Source of the DNA: Halobacterium noricense
GTDB taxonomy: Archaea; Halobacteriota; Halobacteria; Halobacteriales; Halobacteriaceae
Length of the DNA: 64,000 nucleotides
Assembly (NCBI RefSeq): GCF_021233435.1
Contig: NZ_CP089468.1
Span: 744,001 to 808,000 of the forward strand
Reading direction: 5' to 3'
Positions 2,467-55,564 of this stretch are shown here, piece by piece. The notes below the pieces were generated by a model. That model was not told the DNA's origin and did not search any database. It worked only from the letters and a program-made list of their open reading frames with translations. Position 1 is the stretch's first letter. Each line of letters opens with the position of its first letter. The translations under genes and the position numbers were made by a program.

Positions 2467-2520
2467 GTGGACTCGTCGGGAGTCTCGTGAGCGGAGCGAA
2501 CGAGACATCGACGAGTCCAC
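2467..2520. repeat. long hairpin containing a copy of the tRNA-Ala 3' end
   Basis: GTGGACTCGTCG at 2467-2478 pairs perfectly with CGACGAGTCCAC at 2509-2520. After a small asymmetric bulge, GTCTCGT (2482-2488) pairs with ACGAGAC (2500-2506), leaving an 11-base loop. The 14 bases TGGACTCGTCGGGA at 2468-2481 also occur at 2550-2563, which is the 3' end of the tRNA gene. The hairpin is downstream of the tRNA in its direction of transcription and could act in termination, or be a relic of integration at the tRNA. Confidence 0.7.
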
Positions 2521-2549
2521 GACTGAGGGAGCGAAGCGACCGAAGGAAG

Positions 2550-2621
2550 TGGACTCGTCGGGATTTGAACCCGAGGCCTTCCCCGTGCCAGGGGGATGAT
2601 CTACCACTGATCTACGAGCCC
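2550..2621 (-). tRNA. tRNA-Ala (anticodon GGC)
   Basis: The minus strand reads as a complete 72-nucleotide cloverleaf. The acceptor arm GGGCTCG pairs with CGAGTCC and contains the G3:U70 wobble pair that identifies alanine tRNAs. A D-arm is present, the anticodon loop CTGGCAC shows anticodon GGC, and the T-loop is GTTCAAATC. The discriminator is A and CCA is not encoded. No intron. AT-rich foreign-looking genes lie downstream of its 3' end, the usual target of integrases. Confidence 0.95.
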
Positions 2622-29215: not shown

Positions 29216-30202
29216 ATGGACCTCACAGGCAAGCGCGTCGTCGTGACGGGTGCCGCCGGACTCGTCGGCTCCCACCTCGCCGCGGACCTCGCGGCCGACA
29301 ACGACGTGCTCGCGGTGGACAACCTCTCGAAGGGCACGCGGGACCGCGTCCCGGACGGCGTGGAGTTCGCGGAGGCCGACGTGCGCGACCCCGACGACGT
29401 GGCCGACGTCATCACCGCGGACGTGGACGTCGTCTTCCACTTCGCAGCGTACACGGACACCAACTACGGCGAACCCCGCCAGCTGTTCGAGGAGAACACG
29501 GAGATGACGTACAACGTCCTCGAACGCATGCACGAGGTCGGCGTCGACAAGCTCGCGTTCACGTCCTCGTCGACAGTGTACGGCGAAGCGCCGATGCCGA
29601 CGCCCGAGGACTACGCGCCCCTCGAACCCATCTCGGTGTACGGCGCGAGCAAGCTCGCCGACGAAGGCCTGATTTCGACGTACGCCAACTCCTACGGCAT
29701 CCAGTCGTGGGTGTACCGGTTCGCGAACATCGTCGGGCCGCGCCAGCGCGGCAACGTCGTCCCGGACTTCATCGAAAAGCTGCTGGACGACCCGGAGACG
29801 CTGGAGATTCTGGGGGACGGCCGCCAGGAGAAGTCCTACCTGCACGTCGAGGAGTGCGTCGACGCCATGACCCACGTCGTCGAGCACGCCGGCGAGCACA
29901 GTTCGCCGAGCAATCGGACGGAGTCCGATGACGCCGCCGACGACTACTACGTCTACAACCTCGGCACGCGCACCACCACCTCCGTCAACCGCATCGCGGA
30001 CATCGTCGCCGACGAACTGGGCGTCGACCCCGACTACGAGTACACCGGCGGCGACCGCGGCTGGACGGGCGACGTCCCGAAGATGCGCCTTTCCATCGAG
30101 AAGCTCTCCGCGCTCGGCTGGGAGCCCAGCCAGTCCAGCGACGAAGCCGTCCGGGAGGCCGCCCGCGTGCTCGTCGAGGAACTGCGCGCGGAACGCGAGT
30201 GA
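29216..30202 (+). CDS. NAD-dependent epimerase/dehydratase (extended SDR)
   Basis: A 328-residue nucleotide-sugar epimerase. The Rossmann motif TGAAGLVGSHLA, the FHFAAYTDT segment and the YGASKLADE active site (Tyr and Lys) are all present, with upstream Ser in TSSSTVYGEA. It is likely to make a UDP- or TDP-sugar for S-layer or glycolipid glycosylation. Residues about 228-242 (EHSSPSNRTESDDAADD) look like a short insertion; at DNA level it contains the perfect palindrome ATCGGAC-GGA-GTCCGAT (29913-29929). Confidence 0.92.
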   Translation: MDLTGKRVVVTGAAGLVGSHLAADLAADNDVLAVDNLSKGTRDRVPDGVEFAEADVRDPDDVADVITADVDVVFHFAAYTDTNYGEPRQLFEENTEMTYNVLERMHEVGVDKLAFTSSSTVYGEAPMPTPEDYAPLEPISVYGASKLADEGLISTYANSYGIQSWVYRFANIVGPRQRGNVVPDFIEKLLDDPETLEILGDGRQEKSYLHVEECVDAMTHVVEHAGEHSSPSNRTESDDAADDYYVYNLGTRTTTSVNRIADIVADELGVDPDYEYTGGDRGWTGDVPKMRLSIEKLSALGWEPSQSSDEAVREAARVLVEELRAERE

Positions 30203-36573: not shown

Positions 36574-38667
36574 ATGAACGTCGGGGCGTTCGTCTGTGGC
36601 TGCGGTGGTGCGGTCGACCTCGACCTCGAAGGCGTCCGGGAAGGCGTCCGGGACGTCGACGTCGTCGCGAGCGGGTCGCTCCTCTGTACGGAAGGGCTCC
36701 CGAAAGTCCGACACGTCGTCGAGGAGTACGACCTCGACCACCTGATAGTCACGGCCGAAAGCGACAACTGCAAGCAACGATACCGGACGGTGCTCGACGA
36801 CGCCGGGCTCCACCCGGAGGCAATCTCGTTCGTCAACCACCGCGAGCGCGGCGCGTGGGTCCACGACGAGGCCGACGCGACCGACCTCGTCGCGCGGAAA
36901 ATCAACGCCGCGTACGCCGGCCTCCGCGAGGAGGCACCGCCGCGAACCGTCTCCCGGGAAGCCGGCGACGGCGTCGTGGTCGTCGGCGACCCCGAGGCCG
37001 CCGAGGCGCTCTCGGATTCGGCCGATGTCACGCTGCTGGCCGACGGGAAGGACTTCGCGGACGCCGACTACGACCTCCGCGACGTCACCATCGCTCGCGG
37101 CCGCGCCACGGACGTCGACGGCGTCTACGGCGAGTTCGAGCTGCAGGTGCAGGCCGGCGTCACCGAGGACTGCATCGACTGCATGGAGTGCGTCAAGCAG
37201 GGGCCCGACGAGTACGTCACGAGCAAGCCCGTCGACGTGCTGCCGGGCGCGCCGAACGGCGACTGGGTGGACTGCTGTCCCACGGACGCCATCCACCCCG
37301 AGGAGCGCACCGTCGAGGCCGACCAGGTCGTCTACCCGGACGCGTCCCGGGAGACCCGCGGCGGCCGCATGGGCTTCTACACGGGCCCCGTCGACGCCGC
37401 GACCGTCGCGGCCGTCCAGGACTTGATCGGCGGCATCGAGAAGCCGCAGTTCCTCGACGTGGAGATGGACGTCTGCGCCGCGGGCGGGTCCAGCCAGCAG
37501 GGCTGTACGGTCTGTTCGGACGCCTGCCCGCACGGCGCGGTCTCCCGCCCCACCATCGACAGCGTGGAGTTCGACGAAGTGGCGTGTGAGGGCTGTGGCG
37601 CGTGTACGAGTGCGTGCCCGACCGGTGCAGTGCGCGCCCGCGAACCCTCGAACGAGCGCATCGCCCGCGAGGTCGAGTCGATGCTCGTCGAGACCGACGA
37701 CTCCGGGCTGCTCTCCTCGTCGGACGGCATCGAGACCGGCGTCGTGGCGTTCGTCTGCGACGAGCGCGCGAGCCGCACGCTCGACGAGTACGGCCGCCGC
37801 GCGCGCCAGCAGGACGGCATCGAGTACCCGCCGCTGCTCCCCGTCGAGGTGCCGTGCGCGGACACCGTCGGCGAGGCGCACGTCTTGCACGCGCTCGCCG
37901 TGGGCGCGGACGGCGTCGCCATCGTCGGCTGTGGTGGCGACTGCCTGCACTCCGGCCCGGACCCGAAGGCCGAACTCGTGACGCGCGTGAACCAGGCGAC
38001 CGAGGACCTCGGGCTCGGCAAGCGCACCGCGTTCTTTGCGCCCGAACCCGGCGAGCCGGAGGCGTTCGTCGAGGACATCAGCCGGTTCGTCGAACTCGGC
38101 CTCGACCCGTCGCCGGTGCCGACCGGCCACGAGGCCACCGGCATCGCCGACGCGACCACCGCGAACCCCGAGTTCAACACTCACGAGTGGGGGCTGGAGA
38201 GCGTGCGCGCCATCGTCCCCCACACCGACCCCCGGGACGTCATCCGCGGGCTGGAGTCGTTCGGCCGCGTCGAAGTCAACGAGGACTGCACGTTCACGCC
38301 GACGTGTTCGAACCTCTGCCCGACCGACGCGCTCCGCCGCGAGGACGCCGGCCTGGAGTTCGACCACGAGCGCTGCGTGAACTGCGGGCTCTGCGAGGAG
38401 GGCTGCATGGAGGACGCCATCCGCGTGGACGGCGGCCTCGAACTCGGCCTGCTCCCCGAGCACAACGACGGGGACGCGTGGACGACCGTCGCGGACGGCG
38501 AGATGCGGGAGTGTCGCCGCTGCGGCAAACCGTTCACCAGCGAGGCGTCCGCACAGAAGATTAGCGAGGAAGTCGGGGACGTCGTCGCGGGCATCGCGCC
38601 CGACGCCGACGGCGACGTCTTCGAGTACTGCAGCGACTGTCGCGCGAAACTCGTCTACGACACGTAA
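36574..38667 (+). CDS. HdrA/MvhD-like multi-cluster iron-sulfur protein
   Basis: A 697-residue cytoplasmic electron-transfer protein. Residues 1-120 resemble the HdrA N-terminus (FVCGCGG, LLCTEG, DNCKQRY, FVNHRERGAWVH). The region where HdrA binds FAD (about 130-190) is short and lacks a GxGxxG motif. Ferredoxin-type sites follow near C200-C206/C234, C311-C318 and C338-C348. An MvhD-like domain (about 389-500: C395, C428, C453, C457) comes next, then another ferredoxin pair (C572-C582, C601-C611) and a zinc ribbon (C647/C650, C686/C689). It may link formate oxidation to a soluble carrier. Confidence 0.85.
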   Translation: MNVGAFVCGCGGAVDLDLEGVREGVRDVDVVASGSLLCTEGLPKVRHVVEEYDLDHLIVTAESDNCKQRYRTVLDDAGLHPEAISFVNHRERGAWVHDEADATDLVARKINAAYAGLREEAPPRTVSREAGDGVVVVGDPEAAEALSDSADVTLLADGKDFADADYDLRDVTIARGRATDVDGVYGEFELQVQAGVTEDCIDCMECVKQGPDEYVTSKPVDVLPGAPNGDWVDCCPTDAIHPEERTVEADQVVYPDASRETRGGRMGFYTGPVDAATVAAVQDLIGGIEKPQFLDVEMDVCAAGGSSQQGCTVCSDACPHGAVSRPTIDSVEFDEVACEGCGACTSACPTGAVRAREPSNERIAREVESMLVETDDSGLLSSSDGIETGVVAFVCDERASRTLDEYGRRARQQDGIEYPPLLPVEVPCADTVGEAHVLHALAVGADGVAIVGCGGDCLHSGPDPKAELVTRVNQATEDLGLGKRTAFFAPEPGEPEAFVEDISRFVELGLDPSPVPTGHEATGIADATTANPEFNTHEWGLESVRAIVPHTDPRDVIRGLESFGRVEVNEDCTFTPTCSNLCPTDALRREDAGLEFDHERCVNCGLCEEGCMEDAIRVDGGLELGLLPEHNDGDAWTTVADGEMRECRRCGKPFTSEASAQKISEEVGDVVAGIAPDADGDVFEYCSDCRAKLVYDT

Positions 38668-51966: not shown

Positions 51967-52494
51967 TCACTCCAGGTCGCGGAAGACGATGCGGTAGTCC
52001 CGCGCGTCGAAGCCGTCCGCGATGTCGTCGGCCCGCTCGCGCAGGTCGCGCACGCGCTCGGCGTCGTCGTGTTCGCCGGCCGCGCGGCGCTCGCTGGCCT
52101 CGTGGAACGCTTCGATGGCCTCGACGTACGCCGCCAGCGAGCGCAAGCGCTCGACGACGTCGGTCAGGTCGTCCTCCGAGACGGGTTTTCTGAGGTAGGC
52201 GTCGTACCCGAGGCCGACAATATCCTCGTCGGGTTCGTTTGCCGTCACCATCACCACCCGGCAGTCGTAGCCCGCGTCCCGAATCGCCGCCAGCACCTCG
52301 TCGCCCGAGACGTCGGGCATGTCCCTATCGAGAAGCACGACGTCCACATCCGGCGAGAGTGTGTCGAGCGCGGCCTCGCCGCCGTTGGCCGTCCGCACGT
52401 CGTACCGGTCGCCGAGTCGGTGCTCGTAGACGTCGAGGTAGTCCTGCAGGTCGTCGACGGCGAGCACAGTCGCGTCGTCACGCCCCCGGCTCAT
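51967..52494 (-). CDS. response regulator with HalX domain
   Basis: A 175-residue receiver protein: acidic pocket D14-D15, phospho-acceptor D56 (LLDRDMPD) and conserved Lys in LRKPVSED. The last 60 residues are the haloarchaeal HalX helical domain. No DNA-binding domain is visible, so HalX is the output or docking module. It is the third gene of an RR-histidine kinase-RR operon. Confidence 0.93.
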   Translation of the reverse strand: MSRGRDDATVLAVDDLQDYLDVYEHRLGDRYDVRTANGGEAALDTLSPDVDVVLLDRDMPDVSGDEVLAAIRDAGYDCRVVMVTANEPDEDIVGLGYDAYLRKPVSEDDLTDVVERLRSLAAYVEAIEAFHEASERRAAGEHDDAERVRDLRERADDIADGFDARDYRIVFRDLE

Positions 52495-52539: not shown

Positions 52540-54642
52540 CTACTCACCACGACAGCCGGTGATTTCGAATCGAGCACCGCGGTCCGGGTCGCCCTCGTCC
52601 GGCGGAACGGCGTCGACGGTCCAGCCGTGGGCGTCGGCGATACGCTCCACGATGGCGAGCCCGAACCCGGTGCCGCCGTCCACGGACGTGAACCCGCGCT
52701 CGAACACCTCGTCGTGGCTACCCTCGGGCAGACCCGGGCCGTCGTCGATGACGGCGAAACCGTCCGCGCACGACGTGACTGTGACTGAGACACCGCCGGC
52801 GTCCCCAGCGTGCTCTACGGCGTCCTCGTGAGCGTGCGAACGAGGGTTCGTGGAGCCATGCCCCACGGCATCCTCAGAACGCTTCGCGTTCTGGGGGTCT
52901 GTGGAACCATGTTCCACAGCATTTCGGAAGAGGTTCTCGAACAACTCCTGGAGCCGCGTCGGGTCCGCTTCCACGCTGTCGTCGGTTTCGACCGCGAGCG
53001 TCGCGTCAGCCGCGTCGATACAGTCCCACGCGTCTGTCGCGACCTCGGCCAGCGCGGCGGACTCGGTTTCGTCAGCGAGCCCGCCCTGTCGGGCGAGTTT
53101 GAGCACGTCCTCGACGAGCGCTTCCATGCGGTCGAGGGCGCTGCTGGCGCGGTCGAGGTGGTCGTGGTCGCCGGTGTCCGTCGCGAGGTCGAGGCCCCCG
53201 CGAGCGACGTTGATGGGGCTGCGGAGGTCGTGGCTCACGACGCTGGCGAACTCGTCCAGGCGCTCGTTCTGCCGTTCGAGTTCGCGCTCGCGGGCCTTGC
53301 GCTCGGTGATGTCCCGAATCGAGGCGAGCACCACCACGTCGCCCTCGTAATCGATGCTCGTGGCGCTGAACTCGCAGAAGCGCACGTCGCCGTCGGGTTG
53401 CCGGATGCGGCTCTCGAACGTCTGCCGGCGGCCGGCCGCGGCCGTCAGTTCGCCGGCGACGCGTTCGAGTTTCACGCGGTCCTCGGGGTGGAACAGCTCG
53501 CAGGCGTCCGCGGCCAGGAGTGCCGCCCGGGAGCGCCCGAACAGCGCCGACGCGCGCTCGTTGGCGAACGATAGCTCGCCGTCGGCGTACGTGACGACGG
53601 CGTCGTGGCTCTGCTCGACGAGCGTCCGGTACTTCTGCTCGCTCTCCCGGAGCGCGTCCGCCGAGCGCAGCCGCCGGAGCGTCGCGGAGACGTGCGCCAT
53701 CAACAGTTCGACGAGCTCGGCGTCCGTCTGCGAGAACGCGCCGTGCTCCCGGGAGCCGGCCTGGAACACGCCGACGTCGTCGATGGGCACGCTCAACACG
53801 GCCGTGTACTCGGGACTGGCGGGCTCGGCGTTTTCGTGGTCGCCGACGTCGTCGACGACCATCGAGGTGTTCTCCTGGTAGGTCCGCCCGGCGATGCCGG
53901 TGTCGGCGGGGAGACGCTGGGAGTCCTCGGGCTCCAACTCGGTGGACGTGGCCTTCGGGACGAGGTAGCCGTCTTCGACGACGTCGATGCCGCAGACGTC
54001 GAATTCGAGGATGTTTTCGGCGGCGTCGATGGCGAGGTGGTAGATGCTGGTGGCGTCCTCGCAGCCGACCATTCTGGCGGCGACGCTGTGGAGCTTCTCG
54101 AACTGCCGGCGCTCGGTCCGGAGGGAGTCGCGCAGTCGGTCGCGCTCCCGGGCGGCGTCCAGCCGCGTGAACCCCTGGCCGACGACTCTGCCGACGGCAG
54201 CGAGGCGCTCGCGCTCGGCGTCGGTGTCGGCCCGCGTGTCCGGCCCGAACGCGAGCGTCCCGTAGTAGTCGTCGGCGTCCACGACGGGGACTGCGGCGGC
54301 GTGCGCGTCGTCGTACGCGACCCACGTCACGGTGCGTTCGTCCGCTGCTGGTGCATGTGCATCGTCACCCAACGGTTCGGGCTCGCCGCCTATCTCGTCG
54401 GACCCGGACGGGGTTGGGCCGTTCGCTGCGCCCCGGAACGTCGGCGCGACGGTCTTCGGGTCGGGAGGTTCGACTGCGCCCTGGCTCGCCGTCGCGGGTT
54501 CGTCGTCGGTGCCACAGAAGCAGGCGAACTCGTGGCCGGCGTCGACGACGGCGTCACAGACGCTCGCTCGGAGGTCGGGGACACTGTCGGCTCGCTGGAC
54601 GGTTCGCGTCACCGTGCTGACGAGGGGGCGGTCCGGCGACAT
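52540..54642 (-). CDS. GAF-PAS sensor histidine kinase
   Basis: A 700-residue cytoplasmic kinase. Sensor-like regions at about 1-165, a GAF domain (about 185-325), PAS (about 333-447), HisKA with H471 (VVSHDLRSPIN) and HATPase with N574, DDGPGLPEG and GTGFGLAIVE. Between the N-box and the rest of the ATPase, about residues 578-612 form an insertion (HGSTDPQNAKRSED, then GHGSTNPRSHAHED) encoded by four successive DNA palindromes. Start ATG 54642 lies four bases after the first response regulator's stop. Confidence 0.92.
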   Translation of the reverse strand: MSPDRPLVSTVTRTVQRADSVPDLRASVCDAVVDAGHEFACFCGTDDEPATASQGAVEPPDPKTVAPTFRGAANGPTPSGSDEIGGEPEPLGDDAHAPAADERTVTWVAYDDAHAAAVPVVDADDYYGTLAFGPDTRADTDAERERLAAVGRVVGQGFTRLDAARERDRLRDSLRTERRQFEKLHSVAARMVGCEDATSIYHLAIDAAENILEFDVCGIDVVEDGYLVPKATSTELEPEDSQRLPADTGIAGRTYQENTSMVVDDVGDHENAEPASPEYTAVLSVPIDDVGVFQAGSREHGAFSQTDAELVELLMAHVSATLRRLRSADALRESEQKYRTLVEQSHDAVVTYADGELSFANERASALFGRSRAALLAADACELFHPEDRVKLERVAGELTAAAGRRQTFESRIRQPDGDVRFCEFSATSIDYEGDVVVLASIRDITERKARERELERQNERLDEFASVVSHDLRSPINVARGGLDLATDTGDHDHLDRASSALDRMEALVEDVLKLARQGGLADETESAALAEVATDAWDCIDAADATLAVETDDSVEADPTRLQELFENLFRNAVEHGSTDPQNAKRSEDAVGHGSTNPRSHAHEDAVEHAGDAGGVSVTVTSCADGFAVIDDGPGLPEGSHDEVFERGFTSVDGGTGFGLAIVERIADAHGWTVDAVPPDEGDPDRGARFEITGCRGE
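52837..52919. repeat. four tandem palindromes inside the histidine kinase gene
   Basis: CGAAC-GAGG-GTTCG (52837-52850), CGTGGAGC-CAT-GCCCCACG (52849-52867, one mismatch), CAGAACGC-TTC-GCGTTCTG (52875-52893, perfect) and CTGTGGAAC-CAT-GTTCCACAG (52899-52919, perfect). The first and second share their inner bases. They keep the reading frame open and fall in a surface loop of the ATPase domain. Confidence 0.85.
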
Positions 54643-54646
54643 CTGG

Positions 54647-55231
54647 TCAGTCGCTGCCCGTGTTCTGGTCGGGGACGTCGCGGAACGCGACGCGGAAGTC
54701 GTCGAACCCGAAGCCGTCCATCGTGTCGTCGATGCGGTCCCGGAGCTCCTGGATGCGGGCGACGAGCTCCTGGTAGGACTCGTCGAGTTCGAGGTCGCCG
54801 TCGTCGGCCTCGGATTCGAGCAGCGCGCGCTTCGAGGAGAGGGCGTACAACTCCTGGAGGCGGTCGTCGTACGCGGAGCGGTCGAGGAGGGTGTCGACGA
54901 CGTCGTGGAGGTCGTCGCGGTCGACGGGCTTGAGGAGGTACTCGTCGAAGCCGAGGTCGACGACGTCGGTGTTCGGGCGCACGCCCGTGACCATCGCGAC
55001 GCGGCAGTCGTACTCCGCGTGGCGGATGCGGTCGAGGACGTCCTCGCCGGAGAGCCCCGGCATCCGCCGGTCGAGGAGCACGACGTCGACGGCGTCGTCG
55101 AGTTCGTGCAGGGCGGCTTCGCCGGTGGTCGCGGTCTGGACGGCGTACCGCTCGGAGAGCCACTCGGCGTACACGTCGGTGAGCGCTTCGTCGTCGTCGA
55201 CCACGAGTACGCGTGCCTCTTCGTCAGTCAT
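54647..55231 (-). CDS. response regulator with HalX domain
   Basis: A 194-residue receiver protein with acidic pocket D12-D13-D14, phospho-acceptor D54 (LLDRRMPG), a conserved Lys in LLKPVDRDD and a C-terminal HalX helical region ending in a FRVAFRDVPD block. It is the first gene of the operon and is closely related to the third gene, so the kinase is sandwiched by two similar receivers. ATG 55231 is the family start. Confidence 0.93.
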   Translation of the reverse strand: MTDEEARVLVVDDDEALTDVYAEWLSERYAVQTATTGEAALHELDDAVDVVLLDRRMPGLSGEDVLDRIRHAEYDCRVAMVTGVRPNTDVVDLGFDEYLLKPVDRDDLHDVVDTLLDRSAYDDRLQELYALSSKRALLESEADDGDLELDESYQELVARIQELRDRIDDTMDGFGFDDFRVAFRDVPDQNTGSD

Positions 55232-55564
55232 GCGTGGGAATCGGCCTGTGTTGTATCGATAGTCACCCGAGTTAAAGGTTTCTCCAGCCGGAACTCTCCC
55301 CTCAAAATACCCCGACGGCACCGGTCGTGGTACTGACTACCACCGAAACACCTTTCAGTTACCACCCTACCCTTCGGTTATCGTGGCCGAATCGTTAGGC
55401 ACCCCCAAAAGTCGGCTATTCTCGCTTCTTTTCGTCTCTGTGGCCGAAAGAGAGTGTGTCAACGATGCGCAAAACTGCAAAAGGTTTAAGTACTTATCGC
55501 TCCTACTACTGAGTACGACGAGTCGGGCAGCCTCGTGCGCCCTCCACCCGACGTTTCCACCACC
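55232..55564. promoter_or_regulatory. divergent regulatory region between the RR operon and the TFB gene
   Basis: The 333 bases hold no gene. They contain the palindrome GTGGTA-CTGAC-TACCAC (55327-55343) and a further TACCAC half-site near 55361-55366. A repeated GTGGCCGAA occurs near 55384 and 55441. The TFB promoter has a purine-rich BRE-like AAAAGG followed by TTTAAGTA (55479-55492). The operator-like elements could serve either direction. Confidence 0.55.
55479..55492 (+). promoter_or_regulatory. BRE/TATA of the TFB gene
   Basis: AAAAGG directly followed by TTTAAGTA, a textbook archaeal BRE-TATA pair. It predicts a start near 55515 and an untranslated leader of about 50 bases before ATG 55565. 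Confidence 0.65.

Follow-up and report, generated by a model that had tools for sequence, protein, structure and literature searches.

The best-documented cases of palindromic DNA invading proteins come from Rickettsia and some REP-bearing bacteria; here, such invasion is described across haloarchaea. The Rickettsia palindromic elements (RPEs; Ogata et al. 2000, reviewed in PMC10969869), described from Rickettsia, are about 150 bp long and, like the haloarchaeal element, are multi-copy palindromic sequences that lie in frame in unrelated protein genes, are missing from orthologues, and have no known transposase. The CGTC-tagged REPs, with RPE-4 and RPE-6 among them (PMC3733652), are single 8-9-bp stems that start with A/T pairs, enclose 4-5-nt loops, and end in a CCA tail; the abstract of PMC3733652 lists bacterial groups, and its text does not contain "halo". 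The likeness to the present element lies in the small hairpins, often several together, in the lack of an associated transposase, in a partly intragenic location that includes DNA repair and tRNA synthetase genes, and perhaps in CGTC at one end (PMC3733652). The PATEs and SMRs of Haloquadratum walsbyi, as far as the available part of PMC3119063 describes them, are likewise haloarchaeal, transposase-free, and devoid of target duplication, and the PATEs, which have palindromes near their ends, go down to 52 bp in length. In the mitochondria of Nematomorpha, coding palindromes are also perfect inverted repeats in protein genes, but they reach 284 bp (available part of PMC6649704). No description of the element in haloarchaea was found among open-licence papers. 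As judged from sequence comparison, the insert reported here probably represents a tandem pair of copies of a mobile DNA element, very small and non-autonomous, that has spread through haloarchaea and is called the twin-hairpin element below.

The insert of the window kinase

The window, that is, the whole 64-kb stretch of Halobacterium noricense DNA that was analyzed, carries on its minus strand an element-bearing histidine kinase gene (52540..54642; GAF-PAS-HisKA-HATPase_c by domain search, 700 aa), flanked on the same strand by two receiver-domain-like genes (51967-52494 and 54647-55321). The N-box of this kinase is cut between NLFRNA and VEH by an in-frame insert of 99 bp, or 33 codons, formed by two tandem elements (52823..52921), and VEHGST is restored by the element's own hairpin, such that the protein reads NLFRNAVEHGSTDPQNAKRSEDAVGHGSTNPRSHAHEDAVEHAGD across the N-box. 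The boundaries were set by alignment with same-genus orthologues with one unit (L274) or none (L278-L282). Directly 5' of the insert, on the strand with the GA...GA loops, lies the target GGCG (52819..52822, plus strand), under a rule shared with GltX, IleRS, GATase, MutS, Kae1, and agmatinase.

Element 1 (48 bp, 52823..52870, plus strand), supported by covariation and by a match to the general covariance model R2, comprises T, hairpin A (CCTCGT-GAGCGTGCGA-ACGAGG), GTT, hairpin B (CGTGGAGC-CAT-GCCCCACG), and GCA, and encodes AVGHGSTNPRSHAHED on the minus strand. Element 2 (51 bp, 52871..52921, plus strand), supported by folding energy, a partial R2 match, and paralogues, comprises T, hairpin A (CCTCAGAACGC-TTC-GCGTTCTGGGG), GT, hairpin B (CTGTGGAAC-CAT-GTTCCACAG), and CA, and encodes AVEHGSTDPQNAKRSED on the minus strand; its unit is also present in the paralogues L002 and L006. 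The four hairpins have 6-bp arms and a 10-nt loop (52824-52845), 8-bp arms with one mismatch (52849-52867), 8 bp plus two outer pairs and a TTC loop (52872-52896), and 9 bp and a CAT loop (52899-52919). The original prediction had placed four hairpins in 83 bases at 52837-52919; the four adjacent hairpins are real, but 52837 falls inside the first loop and the insert is longer.

The insert is far beyond chance. Specifically, R2 scores 65.7 bits at 52819-52872 (E 1e-14) with a partial match over element 2 (52885-52923), and the 51-bp half folds as DNA with -18.8 kcal/mol, compared with -5.1 +/- 1.8 in shuffled sequences (z -7.5, 0/200). The 48-bp half is not exceptional by folding energy alone (z -1.3), so its evidence consists of covariation and recurrence. 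Elsewhere in the window, a probable second, weaker copy lies in frame in a predicted NAD-dependent epimerase (HSSPSNRTESDDAAD; 29885..29935, minus strand; R2 26.7 bits, E 9e-5, and a match to R1, the covariance model built from the kinase units), and a possible diverged copy lies at 2478..2565 (plus strand; R2 31.8 bits, E 4e-6). Counting twin hairpins across the window by arm length alone gave 7, versus 4-6 in shuffles, and is too blunt a test.

A genome scan with the insert stretch returned 80 loci, mainly kinases of haloarchaea that either hold units at this point or have none (NAVEHGG.DVTV); the original prediction had mentioned similar strings in other haloarchaeal kinases. Depending on the species, the site of the window kinase holds 0, 1, or 2 units: the same-genus orthologues of G003, G012, G018, G023, and G146 have no insert (they read NAVEHGG or NAVEHAG), that of G067 has the 51-bp unit only, that of G035 has a different unit, and those of G127 and G145 have degenerate ones. 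Another orthologue, L287 (G148:C33, ~167767-168530), has one NPRSHAHED-type unit with the frame shifted just before it, which is either real or an assembly error. Within the own genome, units occur in four intact kinases and an apparently truncated one, and other kinases, e.g., L317 and L318, lack them. The kinase fragment L095 (G000:C1:693687-693816) has both unit types in the order opposite to that of the window; its frame continues into non-kinase sequence, and it looks truncated.

These orthologues, together with the pairing of codons, bear on the reading of the insert as a surface loop that was ancestral in haloarchaeal kinases and became palindromic through codon choice, which the original prediction had named as its own refutation if the loop were conserved in all orthologues. 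The peptide theme does recur in many kinases, as such a loop would, but it is absent from the five insert-free orthologues, and the arms covary both synonymously and non-synonymously. In AVEHGST, the third codon positions are complementary well above expectation (Ala3-Thr3 in 62/77 vs 40 expected, Val3-Ser3 in 64/77 vs 31, Glu3-Gly3 in 62/77 vs 37), while in the second hairpin Arg, Asp, Ala, Pro, and Gly codons change along with their partners on the opposite arm; codons on both arms change together, so the protein alters and the stem is kept. In rows chosen by protein pattern alone, 94.5% of the cells are paired (78.4% when shuffled), with 89 both-sided changes versus 30 and a covariation score of 0.46 versus at most 0.10 for slid structures; R2, whose rows, unlike the A1 rows, were partly selected by pairing, gives 97.0% versus 74.6%. 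Since the hairpins also occur in unrelated proteins and in intergenic DNA, in both orientations with respect to genes, the ancestral loop is already contradicted and retains a vanishingly small probability. The EHGST theme noticed at the outset is genuine in its recurrence, but the peptide is one reading frame of a two-hairpin element (48/51/57 bp) and is not specific to kinases.

Architecture, hosts, and empty sites of the element

Outside the kinases, R1 recovered this twin hairpin both from unrelated genes and from intergenic DNA. The element begins with T, which is followed by hairpin A (stem of 6 bp; loop GA-XC-2 to 4 nt-GX'-GA), a spacer of 3 nt, hairpin B (stem of about 8 bp, 3-11-nt loop), and finally GCG, with a net length of 48, 51, 54, or 57 bp. 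On the strand with the GA...GA loop, every case follows the rule host-NSCG^[T-hairpinA-GCT-hairpinB-GCG]^host, where NSCG is applied loosely (MutS has GGGG and L235 has GACG). The element thus lies directly 3' of a GCG-type target: the left 4-mer, which belongs to the host, is usually GGCG and otherwise AGCG, CGCG, GACG, or GGGG. The right 4-mer belongs to the element (GGYR: GGCG, GGCA, or GGTG) and recreates the target, and therefore head-to-tail stacking is possible, as in the kinase N-box of L312 (G093:C1:286000-286400), where five near-identical 48-bp units in tandem represent a recent expansion. The AACGCC of kinase N-boxes is GGCGTT when reversed, which makes these boxes ready targets. 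Two other views of the junctions were discarded. A 5-bp target-site duplication (GGCGT on both sides) is ruled out because the left and right 4-mers differ at four loci, namely Kae1 (AGCG/GGCA), agmatinase (CGCG/GGCG), MutS (GGGG/GGCA), and L235 (GACG/GGTG), and a host-flank origin of hairpin B by copying would account for the kinase site but not for the other six genes.

With one genome per species in the comparisons, R2 detects the element in 139 of the 145 sampled genomes of the class and in 56 of 58 genera, with copy numbers per genome that are lower bounds and reach about 39; matches are confined to haloarchaea, as no match was found in about 124 genomes of other classes of the phylum. 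The own genome, whose copy number had been proposed as a check, holds at least 33 copies at E<=1e-3. As for carriage by viruses, a single exact-pattern scan of viral contigs, a narrow test, did not find the element. When 30 own-genome matches were read in context, 18 proved to lie inside genes: five kinase units, L247 (an open frame without a Pfam match), and 12 families identified with Pfam/NCBIfam that carry in-frame copies (class-I glutamine amidotransferase, GltX, IleRS, PheT, agmatinase, MutS, Kae1-Bud32, HMG-CoA reductase, DUF359 (dephospho-CoA kinase), LigA, YigZ-like, and HisB). LigA (LigA_Halo) exceeds its NCBIfam profile length by 17 aa, matching a 51-bp insert, and HMG-CoA reductase by 16 aa, matching a 48-bp insert.

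Other hairpins occur in G000:C1. One separate intergenic family (L153-L192; e.g., 37914, 112874, 184872, 2434103, 2578349) reads TTCA-CNGCGC-GACCGNAGGGA-GCGCNG-GCCGACGA and has the loop architecture of the twin-hairpin element, and a further family reads CGTGCCC-GACCGCAGGGA-GGGCACG. Moreover, the repeated perfect hairpin CCGCGAGCGCC-NNN-GGCGCTCGCGG stands beside a second hairpin at positions 37914, 93766, 101394, and 2754245.

Empty sites were sought in DNA alignments of 13 genomes of the genus, and clean gaps revealed exact ones for six non-kinase genes. The 48-bp insert of GltX is filled only in G000; the 57-bp insert of IleRS is filled in G000, G035, and G145 and empty in five aligned relatives; that of Kae1 (57 bp) is filled in G000 and G023 and empty in five; that of agmatinase (51 bp) is filled only in G000 and empty in six; that of GATase (57 bp) is filled in G000 and G035 and empty in three; and that of MutS is filled in G000 and G094 and empty in G148. 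At some loci deletion rather than insertion may have occurred. These sites in unrelated hosts support the proposal that a mobile palindrome invades proteins in frame, as far as sequence can tell.

The same sites weigh on an explanation without a dedicated mobile element, in which short-tract gene conversion among kinase paralogues and tandem duplication spread the repeats, with the complementarity of the arms kept up by template switching at quasi-palindromes during replication. Several kinase observations agree with it: the 51-bp unit and its flank are 98% identical over 59 nt between two paralogous kinases whose left flanks have diverged (63% and 54%), the L312 array is nearly homogeneous, and the unit order is permuted in L002 relative to the window. 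The both-sided arm changes at shared loci are also typical of template switching; between species, the arms of IleRS vary from CTCCGC/GCGGAG to CTTCGC/GCGAAG (a joint Ser-to-Phe and Gly-to-Glu change) and those of GATase from CCCCGG/CCGGGG to CTCCGG/CCGGAG, and such changes could stem from template switching or from selection. Nevertheless, recombination offers no route into GltX, IleRS, MutS, Kae1, agmatinase, and HMG-CoA reductase, none of which is homologous to kinases, and does not predict exact empty sites under one target rule, which makes it unlikely as a full account, while it may be the source of the spread within kinases and of the hairpin upkeep.

Reading frame, strand, and putative mode of movement

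The in-gene copies are multiples of three in 18 of 18 cases, versus 6 of 12 of the others; in a second sample, outside genes, the canonical length is also a multiple of three in 24 of 29, so frame preservation is partly intrinsic. The in-gene copies all use a single codon phase, GGC|GTC or GAC|GCC, and those hexamers are most abundant in that phase in general (923/1154 and 1123/1458). Orientation tracks the length of the hairpin-A loop: an 11-nt loop is in sense in 9/9 cases and in 7/7 credible cases of the second sample (in which L334 and L343 look like spurious frames), and a 10-nt loop is in antisense in 6/6, of which five are kinases and thus not independent. The orientations found are those that encode a hydrophilic peptide; an element open in all six frames is ruled out by stops in some of them.

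In DNA, tandem G-A pairs and GNA triloops have unusually high stability. Over 800 kb of genome, 75 hairpin loops of 10-11 nt are bounded by GA/GA or TC/TC, versus 8 in a shuffle; their inner positions 3 and 9 covary (GAGC..GCGA, GAAC..GTGA, GACC..GGGA), and among the 3-nt-loop hairpins C(GAA)G and its complement are favored. The GA-loop strand is in sense in some genes and in antisense in others, evidence against a shared function at the mRNA level. Functional mRNA hairpins selected in these genes for regulation, pausing, or processing are accordingly very improbable: the mRNA carries the asymmetric loop in only part of the genes, with the opposite strand bearing it in the rest, orthologues do without the element, and an Rfam search with it gave no match. 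In favor of such a role are the strength and maintenance of the hairpins and the ability of REPs to function as RNA (PMC3733652).

Because loops of the type stable in DNA (tandem G-A mismatches, GNA-like triloops) are found on the sense or the antisense strand depending on the gene, the element may move as single-stranded DNA recognized via its hairpins, and a putative enzyme acting in trans would cut and join it. Within genes, copies would persist only if their length keeps the frame and their orientation gives a hydrophilic peptide. In the kinase subfamily, hairpin B encodes VEHGST and would rebuild the interrupted N-box, which would explain why it is tolerated there; this subfamily may have spread among paralogues via transposition or short-tract gene conversion. 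A haloarchaeal single-strand, hairpin-directed insertion system, undescribed so far and neither IS200/IS605 nor RAYT, that inserts frame-preserving cassettes of 48-57 bp behind GCG, joins them into head-to-tail stacks, and includes a kinase-adapted subfamily rebuilding the catalytic N-box is a tentative proposal, possible rather than probable.

Alternatively, a REP/PATE-like element could be mobilized by a resident IS200/IS605-type HUH (Y1) transposase, consistent with the missing target-site duplication, the short 5' target, the hairpins near both ends, and the presence in Haloquadratum of PATEs that, in the available part of PMC3119063, include 52-bp terminal-only forms. We consider this quite unlikely, given that the element-rich genomes G086, G136, and G073 have no Y1 genes and that the ends of seven IS605-type copies compared in G000, G035, and G067 do not match the element. 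Transposase counts and copy numbers (as at-least counts) are uncorrelated (rho -0.05, p 0.57), and a Y1 transposase as the driver was rejected on this basis. In G035, two IS605-type copies (L304 and L305) contain a 60-bp in-frame twin hairpin (KPSMTVSAAHQKPKASEDVE) in TnpB, inserted at TTCGGCG^T around position 2330 with TnpA on the plus strand, and the third copy with a related TnpB gene (L303) does not.

A non-autonomous mobile element would account for puzzling insertions in haloarchaeal enzymes and for the HGST/PRS strings in kinases. Its hosts include essential single-copy enzymes, with many pairs of empty and filled sites and a clear insertion rule, and with tractable relatives such as Haloferax, the movement of such elements and their tolerance by proteins become testable.

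Comparison with known palindromic elements

The nearest known kinds are the RPEs, the CGTC-tagged REPs, and the Haloquadratum PATEs, and none fits fully. MITEs have terminal inverted repeats and target-site duplications, neither of which is found here. With PATEs and IS605 elements, the element shares near-terminal palindromes and the absence of target duplication and of terminal inverted repeats, as read from the unlike left and right junction 4-mers at Kae1, agmatinase, and MutS. However, PATE palindromes match IS605-type ends, a likeness not seen here among the seven copies from G000, G035, and G067, which cover some IS605 types only, while SMRs have terminal inverted repeats, and the available part of PMC3119063 describes neither PATEs nor SMRs as in-frame protein invaders. 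The GTAG REP/RAYT systems differ in that the element has no GTAG and no correlation with Y1 genes (counted without RAYT sub-typing). The CGTC REPs have an unpaired CGTC at one end; the element junctions read GGCGTC, of which the CG belongs to the target in the host and the last C takes part in pairing. The single stems of these REPs contrast with two hairpins of 6-bp and 8-bp stems that start with CC and CG, and with GCG ends.

The parallel with the RPEs, drawn in the original prediction, applies to the in-frame invasion of unrelated genes (12 identified non-kinase families, six of them with exact empty sites), while kinship is to be read as analogy only. Unlike the RPEs of about 150 bp, the haloarchaeal element measures 48-57 bp, combines two hairpins with a defined GCG target and a GGYR end of its own, and occurs across haloarchaea. 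It may be filed, on present sequence comparisons, among the protein-invading palindromic elements as a variant.
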